The notes under the pieces: generated by a model
Seen by the model: only the letters and a program-made list of their open reading frames with translations
The model's database searches: none
Told to the model about the DNA's origin: nothing
Translations under genes and position numbers: made by a program
Shown: positions 10,377 to 17,644 of the stretch, piece after piece
Numbering within the stretch: position 1 is the stretch's first letter
Layout of the letters: every line of letters begins with the position of its first letter
IMG/VR virus record: IMGVR_UViG_3300042154_001176
Span: 1-27,779 of that record
Origin: a virus
Strand: one strand, 5' to 3'
Length of the DNA stretch: 27,779 bases

Positions 10377-10754
10377 TCATCCTTTATATAATTCTTTTTT
10401 GATAATCGCGATCTGGTCGTCAGAAAAAATCTTTAAGGCTTCATATGCTTTAGCATCAGAATAACCATAATATTCTTTAATCACATCCAAATCAACGCTC
10501 TTCGCCTTCTTGTACCATTTGCTATATGGACGCTTGGAGGCTCTTACAATATTTAGTAAAAAATCATATTTAAGTTTATTGTCCAGATTAGGATAGCGGT
10601 TCATTTCGTTCGCTATTAATGCCGTGTCCCTGTGAAAAGACAATGCGCGATTAACCATAAAACTGGAGTATGACTTCTCGTCCTGCTCATTTAGCAGAGC
10701 ATATTCTTTCGTCTGTAGAATAGACGGAATTATTTCTTTGAATAAATCAGCCAT
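10377..10754 (-). CDS. 62: Clamp loader small subunit gp62
   Basis: 125 residues. It forms the clamp loader with four copies of gp44 and opens the gp45 ring at primer ends. YSSFMVNRALSFHRD parallels the YSKFMVENALS segment of T4 gp62, and RASKRPYSKWYKKAK parallels its RGKRYGKW segment. It is much shorter than T4 gp62 (187 residues), as in cyanophage-type relatives. The ATG overlaps the stop of the upstream putative nuclease gene by 8 bases, so translation is coupled to that gene rather than directly to 44 as in T4. Confidence 0.9.
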   Translation of the reverse strand: MADLFKEIIPSILQTKEYALLNEQDEKSYSSFMVNRALSFHRDTALIANEMNRYPNLDNKLKYDFLLNIVRASKRPYSKWYKKAKSVDLDVIKEYYGYSDAKAYEALKIFSDDQIAIIKKELYKG

Positions 10755-11211
10755 GAAAAAACTCTAACAAGTTATTTGGTTCTTGTGTTTCAGGGTTCCA
10801 AACATATACAGCATGTAATTTGTGTCTTCTTTTAGCCAATTGTAATCTGTTAATCGATACTGTAGAATCTTCAGTTGGAGGGTGTGTTGTTACTATGATA
10901 AATTTATAATCTTGCGTAGGGGCATTTGTTTCCTTCCAATCTAAAAATTCAGACGCTTCTGCTACTACATCTAAACAAGTATCTCTTCTACTTAATCCAT
11001 CTCCCCCTTTACAGTCTGCAACATATATTGTTCCTTCGTGTTCAAACATGTGTTCTACTCTAGAACCAATCACAGTATTTTTAAATTGACCAATATAGAT
11101 TGCACCAGGAAATAATTCTTGCAATCCAGTTTCTTTAAACTGTTTTTCGTAGAGAGAACCTATACTAGCATTCTCTGCGTTTGCGATGGTGTTTTTATGG
11201 TTCTTATCCAT
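10747..11211 (-). CDS. Putative PD-(D/E)xK-like nuclease with clamp-type tail
   Basis: 154 residues, inserted between clamp loader genes 44 and 62. The layout fits a restriction-endonuclease-like fold: a helix with an acidic residue (SLYEKQFKETGL), then GSRVEHMFEHE, then a strand ending VADCKGGDG in which D-C-K could be the (D/E)xK motif. KFIIVTTHPP and HAVYVWN look like the later strands. The last residues are NNLLEFFHG, close to the T4 clamp-binding tails SLDFLFG and SLDFLYE. The gene overlaps its two neighbours by 8 bases each and is fully built into the operon, which argues against a recent homing-gene insertion. Nuclease activity is inference from the motif layout; I do not recognise a named family. 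Confidence 0.55.
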   Translation of the reverse strand: MDKNHKNTIANAENASIGSLYEKQFKETGLQELFPGAIYIGQFKNTVIGSRVEHMFEHEGTIYVADCKGGDGLSRRDTCLDVVAEASEFLDWKETNAPTQDYKFIIVTTHPPTEDSTVSINRLQLAKRRHKLHAVYVWNPETQEPNNLLEFFHG

Positions 11212-12142
11212 TGAACTTGCACTCCACCATAAGTTCAGTCAAACACGCAGTAAGATTCAGTTCCTGATCAGCAACAAATGCTGACTGATATTGATACTTG
11301 GCTAGGATGATAACTGCATTCGGAATCGTAGACTTATCCATAATGTCATAAAGACTGTTATAGATCTTACGATACAACACCGCAGGATCATCTGTACCAT
11401 TGTCAGCAACCCACTTACGCATCGCACTGAAGTTTTGATCTCGCAGCGCAATCACAAGTTCACCAATAGATACATCAGCAAGATTGGTTAGAATACCTGC
11501 GTCGATCTTGTTGCTAACTGAATAACGCTGTAGTTCATTTAGAACTCGACGATAGTCAGGAAAGTATTTTTTAACAACTTCAGCAAGAATCGCAGTCTCA
11601 AACGGCACCTTTTCTGCCTTAAGAATCTCAGCAGCACGCTTCATAAATGCTGCTGCCATCTTTGGCTTTTCTTCCTTGCGGAGTTTAAACTCAATCACTG
11701 CGCATCGTGAGTGTAAAGGCTCAATGATACGGTTCTTGAAATTACAAGTCATGATAAAGGTACAGTTATGCGCAAACTCTTCCATCGCAGCACGCATCGC
11801 TGGCTGAGTTGAGTTTGGATTCAGATAATCTGCTTCGTCGATGATGATAACTTTCTTGCTACCAGTCAAAGACATAGAACTCGCATAGTTCTTAATCTTC
11901 ATTCTGAATGTGTCAATTCCTGACTCATCAGAGCCGTTGATCATCAAATAGTCACAGCCAATTTCTTCACACATTGCTTTGGCGACCGTAGTCTTACCAA
12001 CGCCAGCGGTTCCGCAGAGAAGGAGATGAGGAATCTCCTTGCGATCTACATAGGATTGAAAGGTGCTTTTGTATTCGTCAGGAAGAATACACTCCGCAAT
12101 AGTTTTCGGTCGATACTTTTCGACCCACAATGCATCCATCAT
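11204..12142 (-). CDS. 44: Clamp loader ATPase gp44
   Basis: 312 residues (T4 gp44 is 319). An AAA+ ATPase that, with gp62, loads the gp45 clamp. Motifs: LWVEKYRPKTIAECI at the N-terminus, Walker A GTAGVGKTT at 44-52, Walker B VIIIDEAD at 98-105, sensor 1 around FIMTCNF at 130-136, and the SRC arginine-finger motif at 146-148. Two ATG codons are adjacent (12142 and 12139); GAGG lies about 8 bases upstream. It is separated from gp45 by a DsbA-like gene and a Tat-leader gene, unlike T4, where 45 and 44 are neighbours. Confidence 0.96.
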   Translation of the reverse strand: MMDALWVEKYRPKTIAECILPDEYKSTFQSYVDRKEIPHLLLCGTAGVGKTTVAKAMCEEIGCDYLMINGSDESGIDTFRMKIKNYASSMSLTGSKKVIIIDEADYLNPNSTQPAMRAAMEEFAHNCTFIMTCNFKNRIIEPLHSRCAVIEFKLRKEEKPKMAAAFMKRAAEILKAEKVPFETAILAEVVKKYFPDYRRVLNELQRYSVSNKIDAGILTNLADVSIGELVIALRDQNFSAMRKWVADNGTDDPAVLYRKIYNSLYDIMDKSTIPNAVIILAKYQYQSAFVADQELNLTACLTELMVECKFNG

Positions 12143-12588: not shown

Positions 12589-12825
12589 TTATTTAGCCAC
12601 GTTTTCGTAAATGGTTTGGAAGTCGCTCTGCTCTGCAACTTCTTCCTCATAGTTACGCTTGTGGTAAACTTTCGCCAGTTTACGAGACAACTTCTTGGGG
12701 ATCTCACATTCATCTTGCATCTTCTGAAGAATCTCTTTGATAAGATCTCGCTCAGCCTCGATGCGAGTGAGTGAGTTTGAGATTTCTTGAAGGCATCCCA
12801 AAACCTTTACTTTATCAATTGCCAT
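12589..12825 (-). CDS. dsbA: DsbA-like dsDNA-binding protein
   Basis: 78 residues, nearly all helical. ISNSLTRIEAERDLIKEILQ, then IPKKLSRKLAKVYHKRNYEEEV, then FQTIYE match my memory of DsbA-type proteins of T4-like phages, which bind double-stranded DNA and enhance late transcription in T4. The match is from pattern memory, not alignment. The ATG shares its A with the end of gene 45's stop codon (TAATG at 12825). A position beside the clamp gene fits a late-transcription helper, since T4 late transcription depends on gp45. Confidence 0.55.
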   Translation of the reverse strand: MAIDKVKVLGCLQEISNSLTRIEAERDLIKEILQKMQDECEIPKKLSRKLAKVYHKRNYEEEVAEQSDFQTIYENVAK

Positions 12826-13502
12826 TATTCTTCTCCGAAGGTAGAGTTAGCAGCCTCAATCGCGATGAAGTATTTGATGCTTGCGTTTTTATTAGAGAAG
12901 CAAGCCATACCACGACGAGAAACCTCAACATCGTAGGAACCGTCCATCATCTTGAAATTTTCAACTTTCATGACTACGCGGAAGGCTTTATCGCTAACAC
13001 CAATTTCAATCTTAGATTGATCAGAAGAATCATCCTTCACGTCAGTTGCGATGAAATAGATCTTCTCACCATCTGACTCAAACACAAAGTTCGGTGAGCC
13101 AGAAATACCTGCGCTCTTACGCATCCACTCAAGATCTTCTTGCGTCAGCGCGAAAGAACAGTCAACACTACCGAGAGTAATCTGCTTTTCTGGTGGTGTT
13201 ACAATAACCTTGGCAGTGCAATACTTGATATAATCGGAACGCTTCTTGTCTTGCGTTGCAATCACAACACGGTCATCGCTGAAGTCCAACTCTGCATCTT
13301 TGTACAGAGAGATCTTGGCAAGAAGTTTATTGAGATCAAACAACGCAAACTCCTTCGAGAAGTTTTCGTTGACCGTAGCCTCAACATAAACAGTTTTCAT
13401 TGGGGAGATGGTGCGAAGAATATTGCCTGATTTAAATTGCAGACTCTGATTGATACCAGAGAAATTCTTTAGCACGTTCACAGTAGACTCAGAAAGTTTC
13501 AT
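12825..13502 (-). CDS. 45: Sliding clamp gp45
   Basis: 225 residues (T4 gp45 is 228). A trimeric ring that tethers DNA polymerase and the late sigma factor complex to DNA. The N-terminus MKLSESTVNVLKNFSGINQSL is very close to T4 MKLSKDTTALLKNFATINSGI. LFDLNKLLAKISL and the final KYFIAIEAANSTF match the family's domain ends. Partners bind in a hydrophobic pocket through short C-terminal peptides; three other proteins in this operon end in peptides of that kind (see findings). It overlaps the dNMP kinase stop by 14 bases. Confidence 0.96.
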   Translation of the reverse strand: MKLSESTVNVLKNFSGINQSLQFKSGNILRTISPMKTVYVEATVNENFSKEFALFDLNKLLAKISLYKDAELDFSDDRVVIATQDKKRSDYIKYCTAKVIVTPPEKQITLGSVDCSFALTQEDLEWMRKSAGISGSPNFVFESDGEKIYFIATDVKDDSSDQSKIEIGVSDKAFRVVMKVENFKMMDGSYDVEVSRRGMACFSNKNASIKYFIAIEAANSTFGEE

Positions 13503-15019: not shown

Positions 15020-16348
15020 TCAACCGAAAAGATCTTCTAACGTGCTGACTACGTTTAGTTTCTCATTAAATTTAAAGTGTCCATTCCAAACAGAATCAAC
15101 TGTGTCGTTTAGACTTTCATCATATTTACCAACCTTAACTTCGCAAGTATGATATGCGAGAGCAAGATATTGCGACGCGATTTCTTTACGATCAAATTGC
15201 TTGACGAATTCCCAGTTGTTAGCAACAATCTTGCCATAATCAAACGGTTCCATCGCAAGGAATTTATTACAGAGATCACCAAACTGTTTTGGTGTTGCAT
15301 CCCAAGGAATCATGAGATAATTTTTACCAGGCTTGAGTAGACCGATGCCCTTCTCGTTATCAGACACACCAAGATTACGAGCAATAGGAACAACGCCCAT
15401 AAGCATCGCATCAATGACAACACGATTAAAGTGTTCGCCATAAGTTTTAGACCACGAAGGATCTAACAAGAACTTGCTGCGACTGAGAATCTCATCGCGC
15501 TTTTGTTCAGACACAAAGCCAATGTATTGCATCCCCACATTCAAAGCATTGATCCAGATTGGGTGATTGATTCTCTCTTCACCTGCTTGCGGATCGCGAT
15601 CAAATGTGCAATAATATTCTGGCTTACACTTATCTTTTGATGCCATGTAAGCACGCTCAATACCATCACCAGCAAGTATAACTCTACCATGAATGTATGG
15701 AACTGCTGCTACGAGGTCATCAACACGCTTCCAACGCTTGAACGTTTGAAGCGAGAAGATGGTGTTTGTTTTCTCATCGAAAGATGTTCCGCGCTTTCTG
15801 GAGATATCCTGAGGGTTCAAAATCAACAAACGAGGAATGTTCATTGCCTCTGCTTGATTGAATGCGCTCGGATGAACGCAAGCCAACGCTGCGATATATG
15901 GACGAAGATGATGAATCCATGGATAGTTTTTGCGTAAATTGCCATCGTGAACGATTACGACGTGCTTCGCCTTTACGTCCTTGAACATTCTTAGCCATGA
16001 TTGTTTTCCCTCTGAATCCTGACACTTAAAGCCAAAGATAGATTGCCAAATAACAACATCATAATTGTTAGCAAGATTAACAAACTTATTCACATCGTCA
16101 TCATTGATGAACGACAGATATTCACCGCGCCATCCTTTGCCTTGGTGGACTGGAAGCCCAGTTCCTACACCAATATCATATCCTTCTTTATCATAGTCAT
16201 CTGAGAACTTGCCACCAGTTTTTGTAGAGCGCAGGTAAACAAATCCAGTCTCATGACCAAGATCTTTGAAACCAGCAATCAATTGCTCAGTGTGAGAAAT
16301 GATGCCACCGAAGTTATTAAAGTCGTGAACAACAGTTAGTATTTTCAT
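15020..16348 (-). CDS. GT-B (GT4-like) glycosyltransferase with clamp-type tail
   Basis: 442 residues. The N-terminal domain starts MKILTVVHDFNNFGGIISHTEQLI, with the glycine-rich acceptor loop. The C-terminal donor domain has LQTFKRWKRVDDLVAA, VILAGDG, QYIGFVSEQKRDEIL, and an E-x7-D donor motif at E305/D313 followed by AMLMGVVPIARN. The last eight residues (435-442) are STLEDLFG, identical to the end of the adjacent TET-like oxygenase and similar to T4 gp43's SLDFLFG. It follows the oxygenase by 3 bases. Likely role: adding a sugar to the base made by that oxygenase. The sugar donor is unknown. A GT4 enzyme of surface glycans is the main alternative, but the shared tail argues against it. 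Confidence 0.8.
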   Translation of the reverse strand: MKILTVVHDFNNFGGIISHTEQLIAGFKDLGHETGFVYLRSTKTGGKFSDDYDKEGYDIGVGTGLPVHQGKGWRGEYLSFINDDDVNKFVNLANNYDVVIWQSIFGFKCQDSEGKQSWLRMFKDVKAKHVVIVHDGNLRKNYPWIHHLRPYIAALACVHPSAFNQAEAMNIPRLLILNPQDISRKRGTSFDEKTNTIFSLQTFKRWKRVDDLVAAVPYIHGRVILAGDGIERAYMASKDKCKPEYYCTFDRDPQAGEERINHPIWINALNVGMQYIGFVSEQKRDEILSRSKFLLDPSWSKTYGEHFNRVVIDAMLMGVVPIARNLGVSDNEKGIGLLKPGKNYLMIPWDATPKQFGDLCNKFLAMEPFDYGKIVANNWEFVKQFDRKEIASQYLALAYHTCEVKVGKYDESLNDTVDSVWNGHFKFNEKLNVVSTLEDLFG

Positions 16349-16351
16349 AAA

Positions 16352-17644
16352 TTATCCGAATAAATCTTCTAGGGTAGACGCTTTATTATACGCTTCTGGA
16401 TGGTATTTGGCAACCATTTCTCGACCGCCATGTTTTTCCAAGTAATCATACCATTCTTGTTCTTCCCACATTCCTGGACTGATTCCGTTCCAGAGTTTTC
16501 GTTGTAGTGGGTGTTCTTTGTTTTTTCTACGGCACTCAACATAATTAAATCGATGATCTTCATATTCCTTGCTCCCAAGTTCAAGCATCTTTTCTCGCAG
16601 ATAACATACAAGACTAATGCGCTCAGCAACATCATCATGCATTACAATCGGAGTGTTACCGTGCATGCATTCATGATTGTTTACAAGTAATAGATCTCCT
16701 GGGCGAACATTAATTGCTATTCTGACTTCAGGCAAAACCAAGTAACCGCCAGAATAATTCCCATTATTAGATAAAACCAACAAATTGGAGAGTCCATCTG
16801 TAAAATCTCCTGCGTCATAATGCGCTGCTGTTCGAAATGTTTTGTTCACTGTGATTGTTGTAAACACAGTTCCTGGCACAAGAAACGCAGGATCAATTTT
16901 ATCTGCGGCTGCGCGTTGATTACTCCAACGTTGAGGAAGGAGTTCTTTGAATCCGTTATCTAACGTTTGAAGAAACGGAAAAGATAATTGAAACTTATCG
17001 TAACTGGTCTGAGTATAAGAAGTAGCGCGACCATAAGGAATCCGAGGGTAGCGATCGAACCAGCCAGCAATACCTGAGTAAACGATATTGGCATACGTCG
17101 TGTCTGAAATGAACGTATCTTGAACAAGTTTGGCTTCATTGATAACCTTCTCTAAATCTTTTTCTTGAATAAGATTATTCAGCCATTTGTCCCAATTAAA
17201 TTCTGCTTCCTTGACTTCTTGAGCAAGCCAAACAAGACCACGAGAAGAAACGGCATCTTTATTTAACTCGTGAATGCGCTCAACTTCATCTTTTAAATCT
17301 AGACCAAGATTGTTAACAGAAATCTTGGCTAGGAATTCTAGAGTGCGATATTGAACTTCGGTGACCCAGTCGCGACCACCACACTTGTCGCCTTTCGGAC
17401 CAGCAGCAAGTCCACGATTCTGTGAAGCAACAGCAGCATCACGCAATCCTGCGTAGGCTTGATCCTGTTGTTCTTTGCTGAAGAAGTTCTTGCGAAACTT
17501 GAACGCAATGTTTTCTTCGCTTTCGCTTCCGATATAGCAATCTGTATCTTCTTCGATCACAACATCATAATGCGATTCATCAAGGAATTGACCAAGAAGA
17601 TGCGCGCAATCGTGTTTGTTTTTTGCTACAATTACTTTGACCAT
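16352..17644 (-). CDS. TET/JBP-family DNA base oxygenase with clamp-type tail
   Basis: 430 residues. A 2OG-Fe(II) dioxygenase of the TET/JBP kind, which oxidises the 5-methyl group of 5-methylcytosine or thymine in DNA. Visible features: GTVFTTITVNKTF, iron ligands H275-Y-D277, LSNLLVLSNNGNYSGGYLVLP, VRPGDLLLVNNHECMHGNTP with H328 as distal ligand, and the 2OG-binding R342 in ERISLVCYLRE. The N-terminal 250 residues are family-specific and include GGRDWVTEVQYRTLEFLAK. The C-terminus (423-430) is STLEDLFG, like T4 clamp-binding tails. ATG 17644 has GAGAGGTG upstream. It is the first gene of the operon behind a consensus promoter. A partner DNA C5-methyltransferase, which a 5mC route would need, is not in the window. 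Confidence 0.83.
   Translation of the reverse strand: MVKVIVAKNKHDCAHLLGQFLDESHYDVVIEEDTDCYIGSESEENIAFKFRKNFFSKEQQDQAYAGLRDAAVASQNRGLAAGPKGDKCGGRDWVTEVQYRTLEFLAKISVNNLGLDLKDEVERIHELNKDAVSSRGLVWLAQEVKEAEFNWDKWLNNLIQEKDLEKVINEAKLVQDTFISDTTYANIVYSGIAGWFDRYPRIPYGRATSYTQTSYDKFQLSFPFLQTLDNGFKELLPQRWSNQRAAADKIDPAFLVPGTVFTTITVNKTFRTAAHYDAGDFTDGLSNLLVLSNNGNYSGGYLVLPEVRIAINVRPGDLLLVNNHECMHGNTPIVMHDDVAERISLVCYLREKMLELGSKEYEDHRFNYVECRRKNKEHPLQRKLWNGISPGMWEEQEWYDYLEKHGGREMVAKYHPEAYNKASTLEDLFG

Follow-up and report, generated by a model that had tools for sequence, protein, structure and literature searches.

A predicted PD-(D/E)xK nuclease between phage clamp-loader genes 44 and 62 is a candidate free-standing homing endonuclease

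A small gene lies between the clamp-loader genes

The window, the whole 27,779-nucleotide stretch of IMG/VR record IMGVR_UViG_3300042154_001176, encodes both subunits of a T4-type clamp loader on the minus strand. These are gp44, the large AAA+ subunit (11204..12142, minus; phrog_168, E 1e-124), and gp62, the small subunit (10377..10754, minus; phrog_225, E 4e-37; Pfam Phage_clamp_A). The sliding clamp gp45 is encoded at 12825..13502 (minus; phrog_223, E 1.5e-62). In T4, genes 44 and 62 are translationally coupled.

We found that a third gene, here called ORF X (10747..11211, minus), lies between 44 and 62. It starts with ATG and encodes a predicted nuclease of 154 amino acids. The initial annotation had described a protein of this length that overlaps each neighbor by 8 bases, and both overlaps are exact; the strand, which it did not give, is minus. 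The three peptides it had singled out, VEHMFEHE, VADCKGG and LLEFFHG, are all present.

The 8-base overlaps derive from the insertion site rather than from chance, because the ends of the insert reuse junction sequence. Where relatives have an empty 44/62 junction, the end of gp44 and the beginning of gp62 share exactly 8 bases as well, ATGGCTGA. The insert retains ATGGCTGA at its 3' end, where ORF X overlaps gp62 (10747..10754, minus). At its 5' end, where gp44 overlaps ORF X (11204..11211, minus), it has the look-alike ATGGATAA in the place of the ATGGCTGA of an empty junction, and the start of ORF X supplies a new stop codon for gp44. The stop codon of ORF X falls inside the ancestral 44/62 overlap and the C-terminal glycine is therefore fixed.

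A homologue of ORF X, 64-66% identical, occupies the same position in other contigs, and comparison of the two gave a dN/dS of ~0.14, with dS near saturation. The homologue and this ratio rule out a chance open reading frame. ORF X was seen at the 44/62 junction only, in two sequence groups. It had no match in Pfam, PHROGs, PADLOC or NCBIfam, and no credible match in GenBank phages, genome contigs or PDB sequences; one GenBank phage match (E 0.04) falls in a tail-fibre gene. Scanning viral contigs for the codons of VADCKGG returned the known homologues, DUF1064 proteins (which carry the same motif) and chance matches, and no new relatives of ORF X.

The 44/62 junction is an insertion hotspot

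Searches of IMG/VR with gp44 and gp62 yielded loci from one T4-like clade. Most junctions were empty, with the two genes directly touching, at 116 loci (42 distinct junction sequences), counts that are not frequencies because the loci partly overlap and near-copies occur. These empty junctions rule out ORF X as an obligate clamp-loader subunit. The remaining loci carry 30 distinct inserts of 194-827 bp, all at the same base, and gp44 is 83-100% identical among the phages with empty and occupied junctions.

The inserts fall into about a dozen families, mostly nuclease-like. Besides ORF X there are an unnamed family that we call L105, Endo VII-type proteins in four divergent forms (Endonuclease_7, E 5e-18), proteins with HNH_3 and NUMOD4, and phrog_655 homing endonucleases (E 2e-50). 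Four further inserts (L034, L017, L111 and L418) look PD-(D/E)xK-like by eye only; the others are L045, a 69-aa protein and noncoding remnants. Two of the remnants (L143 and L061) are long and have a fresh ribosome-binding site ahead of gp62. Another locus, L098, begins like the L143 remnant and continues into an intact L105-type nuclease.

Remnants at the site, one of them adjoining an intact nuclease, would fit the view that ORF X is itself an inactive relic, or a cargo gene moved by homing or recombination that other hotspot nucleases drive. We consider this very unlikely: ORF X is intact in every contig in which it was seen, all of its catalytic residues are kept, and its dN/dS is 0.14.

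The site is not exclusive to homing genes, since two cyanophages carry DNA methylases there. P-SSM4 has a Dam methylase in the 44/62 interval, and Sf-FR1 has a DNA methyltransferase together with an L105-family protein. The clamp, clamp-loader and regA block of Sf-FR1 (L430; PV340855.1, 132723-135979) also contains an endonuclease V gene.

ORF X is predicted to have a PD-(D/E)xK nuclease fold

We compared ORF X with the L105 family, which comprises the hotspot insert, 175 IMG/VR stretches and protein XYM58726 of Synechococcus phage Sf-FR1. Both occur between 44 and 62 and share the motifs G-x(3)-E, iG-x-[VL][DE], [DE]-x-KGG and R-x-D, but they are only about 14-26% identical. Against the L105-family HMM, ORF X scored 9.7 bits, above 2000 shuffles of its own sequence and above the clade's other predicted proteins (next 6.0), and the active-site columns were in register. 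Profile-profile comparison gave a weak match (probability 5.9%, P 0.006). The L105 family in turn weakly matches DUF4143 (E 3e-5), YraN/UPF0102, HSDR_N_2 and SfsA in Pfam and NCBIfam, models that we take to be PD-(D/E)xK.

An AF2 model of ORF X from a 20-row alignment reached a pLDDT of 80.9 and a pTM of 0.77, although this joint alignment presupposes homology to the L105 family. With ORF X rows only, pLDDT was 58, the order of elements was unchanged and there was no clear fold match. That order (H3-33, E38-45, E50-58, E61-68, H76-96, E102-108) contains the alpha-beta-beta-beta-alpha-beta core of the PD-(D/E)xK superfamily. The key residues lie where this fold places them: the second strand carries an acid and the third the (D/E)xK motif. 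The acid is E53 (11053..11055, minus), the predicted acidic metal ligand at the PD position, which is conserved and aligned with an aspartate of the L105 family. The motif is D66-C67-K68 (11008..11016, minus), found in all homologues and aligned with the ExK of the L105 family. E22, the G-x(3)-E acid of the N-terminal helix (11146..11148, minus), is invariant in alignment A2. All four residues (E22, E53, D66 and K68) are retained in both ORF X and its 64-66% homologue.

The best structural match to the model in VIA-align was XisH (2okf, 2inb; Z 10.5 over 119 residues), followed by the Pyrococcus repair nuclease 2vld (9.1), EndoMS (8.9) and SfsA (8.4); lower ranks were mainly restriction and defence nucleases. 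XisH, an excision-controlling factor of cyanobacteria, is only 12% identical to ORF X. From the conserved residues, the model and the fold matches, we conclude that ORF X very probably has a PD-(D/E)xK fold, as the initial annotation had proposed, and it would be expected to act as a nuclease. None of the three outcomes named there as counting against the proposal was observed: the predicted fold is that of a nuclease, and both D-C-K and the tail are conserved among homologues.

EndoMS/NucS resembles ORF X in its fold and in a possible clamp-binding C-terminus, and differs in being an archaeal and actinobacterial mismatch enzyme with two domains, an N-terminal dimerisation domain and a C-terminal nuclease domain. 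That two-domain layout was not found in ORF X, which at 154 aa is a single domain, aligns to EndoMS residues about 120-240 only, and has the distribution of a mobile gene.

Distribution and flanks of the inserts suggest mobility

We found that close relatives carry either an occupied or an empty allele at precisely the same site, and that the distribution of inserts is patchy and does not track the host-gene tree. Mapped onto a 76-row gp44 tree, insert presence and absence required at least 19 changes, and well-supported branches force 11 of these. The presence of ORF X alone required 3 changes.

The sequences flanking the inserts are often locally divergent. Between L379 (empty) and L410 (ORF X), identity is 75% over the final 99 bp of gp44, as against about 95% farther off. 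Across 23 insert/empty pairs flank identity dropped by 0.038, in contrast to no drop in 33 empty/empty pairs (p=0.02). The effect was strong in L379/L410 and L415/L416 and absent in L372/L366. This pattern would fit co-conversion of flanking sequence, but it is modest and does not appear in every pair.

ORF X might instead be a resident accessory nuclease, tethered to the clamp and acting in repair, EndoMS-type mismatch nicking or the breakdown of unmodified host DNA, that happens to sit at a variable site. A resident function is possible given that ORF X is confined to one junction and is under purifying selection. EndoMS is among the fold matches (Z 8.9), the tail of ORF X is like the clamp tail of gp43, cyanophage DNA methylases occupy the same interval, and the window encodes a Tet_JBP oxygenase and a glycosyltransferase. 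However, most relatives lack ORF X and have nothing or unrelated nucleases in its place, which is not how a fork-associated repair enzyme would be expected to be distributed, and ORF X has no known co-occurrence with modification genes. We regard a resident role as unlikely. Fork repair, mismatch-like nicking and discrimination of host DNA, the functions first put forward for this protein, are not our first choice because ORF X is a patchy, interchangeable hotspot insert.

The C-terminal tail resembles clamp-binding peptides

ORF X ends in LLEFFHG (10750..10770, minus), a stretch with low pLDDT (about 52) that is probably flexible. The conserved form of the tail is [LI][LM]EFF, with NLLEFFHG at the end of ORF X and DIMEFFYG at the end of its homologue. 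The T4 proteins gp43, gp55 and gp33 have clamp-binding ends with hydrophobic and acidic residues in common (PMC2988020). In every gp43 sequence read from the clade, the end was [STND][LIV][DE]xFF (e.g., SLEDFF or SLDCFF); the [LIV][DE]xFF of these tails compares with LLEFF in ORF X.

We found similar motifs in other hotspot proteins. The pattern [LIV]xxF[FLMY], within 12 residues of either end, occurred in 11/20 hotspot proteins and in 19/357 clade proteins. The N-terminal motif alone occurred in 5/20 and 12/357, respectively (p=0.001); p-values for this enrichment are exploratory because most inserts were already known, and had shaped the expression, by the time it was set. A fresh sample gave one new family, L418, which fits only a wider expression. 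This 189-aa insert has an ESK motif, and its tail, STLDHMFV, is the best clamp-peptide match among hotspot proteins. A stricter gp43-type tail, searched in 2730 ORFs, gave five clusters: gp43, a glycosyltransferase, a Tet_JBP oxygenase, a 112-aa protein and hotspot nuclease L418. The tail of ORF X did not match this strict form.

The tail of ORF X also overlaps a possible ribosome-binding site for gp62. AGAG (10762..10765, minus), which precedes a T-rich spacer and lies 7 nt upstream of the gp62 ATG, encodes E150 as well. The EFF could therefore be a by-product of this site and bind no clamp, an explanation limited to the tail that leaves the homing reading intact. GAG-TTTTTT, read in frame, lies 7 nt ahead of the gp62 ATG, the L022 homologue has GGAG-TTTTTTT, and noncoding remnants end in GGAG-TTTTGAG-ATG. 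However, L116 and L131 read the site in another frame, L418 stops before it, the motif occurs in only 5/159 translationally coupled genes, and a ribosome-binding site cannot account for the N-terminal motifs of five hotspot proteins. We place this explanation slightly short of an even prospect. The initial reading of the tail as clamp-like is plausible from the resemblance to gp43 and the enrichment in the hotspot set, and the overlap with the ribosome-binding site partly confounds it. We give ORF X roughly an even chance of binding its putative partner gp45.

Outside the hotspot, most L105-family members have no gp45-type tail, and some have QLxLF-type tails. Among relatives from outside the clade (L208, L219, L242, L255 and others of L199-L276) some tails are QLDLF, QLHLF or QLSLP, ends that follow the bacterial beta-clamp-binding pattern. 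QLxLF-like tails occurred in 5/26 L105-relative tails, several of them mutually related, compared with 0.06 in shuffles. We tentatively raise the idea, which we hold to be somewhat doubtful, that unrelated selfish nucleases (PD-(D/E)xK, Endo VII-type and HNH) at the clamp-loader boundary convergently gained short clamp-binding peptides at one end or the other and so ride the replisome, with relatives of one of them elsewhere bearing the beta-clamp-type tails.

Two other proteins of the window, the group-1 glycosyltransferase (15020-16348, minus) and the Tet_JBP oxygenase (16352-17644, minus; Pfam E 4e-24), share the C-terminal sequence STLEDLFG. This end closely resembles the clade gp43 tail SLEDFF and is retained in relatives as STLENMFA and STLDDMFG. 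T4 alpha-glucosyltransferase binds gp45 (PMC13216743), and by analogy DNA hypermodification in this phage may be clamp-tethered.

Discussion

We suggest that ORF X is probably a free-standing homing endonuclease of the PD-(D/E)xK fold, resident at the 44/62 boundary. Our best reading is that it represents a type of PD-(D/E)xK homing enzyme not previously described, for which the essential, coupled clamp-loader pair is a safe site. We infer that ORF X would cut phage genomes in which no insert interrupts the 44/62 junction, and that repair of the break would then copy ORF X and short flanks into the gap. The carrier would be protected because the insertion splits the target. Since the start and stop of ORF X reuse the 8-base overlap, ribosomes could pass from 44 through ORF X to 62, so that the insertion would be tolerated in an essential clamp loader. 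The LLEFFHG tail may tether the enzyme to gp45, concentrating it on replicating phage DNA.

SegF, MobE and F-CphI of T4-like phages are, like ORF X, small intron-less nuclease genes at essential-gene boundaries that overlap an upstream ORF, are patchy among relatives and have other nucleases in the same place. They differ in being GIY-YIG, HNH or Endo VII-type; ORF X is PD-(D/E)xK and lies between 44 and 62. I-Ssp6803I is a PD-(D/E)-XK homing endonuclease likened to ORF X by fold and candidate role, not by sequence; it is small, single-domain and encoded in a tRNA intron, whereas ORF X is free-standing. Free-standing homing genes of T4 often overlap the upstream ORF, and translational coupling has been suggested for them (PMC2988022). 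Related phages can differ in homing gene content at one place, in replisome and other essential modules (PMC10448857). For the Endo VII-type enzyme F-CphI, from a T4-like cyanophage, free-standing homing has been proven (PMC6083498). Our literature search, which was thin on subscription papers, found no report of a homing gene between 44 and 62. In the literature searched, both the 44/62 site and the PD-(D/E)xK class as a free-standing homing enzyme appear to be new.

Binding of gp45 by the terminal peptides of the hotspot nucleases, if it occurs, would link homing physically to replication. This would explain how small enzymes locate rare targets, and could be tested by simple pull-downs. If ORF X is a homing enzyme, T4-like phages would gain a free-standing PD-(D/E)xK homing endonuclease, and the clamp-loader junction would stand out as a site of frequent homing among aquatic phages.
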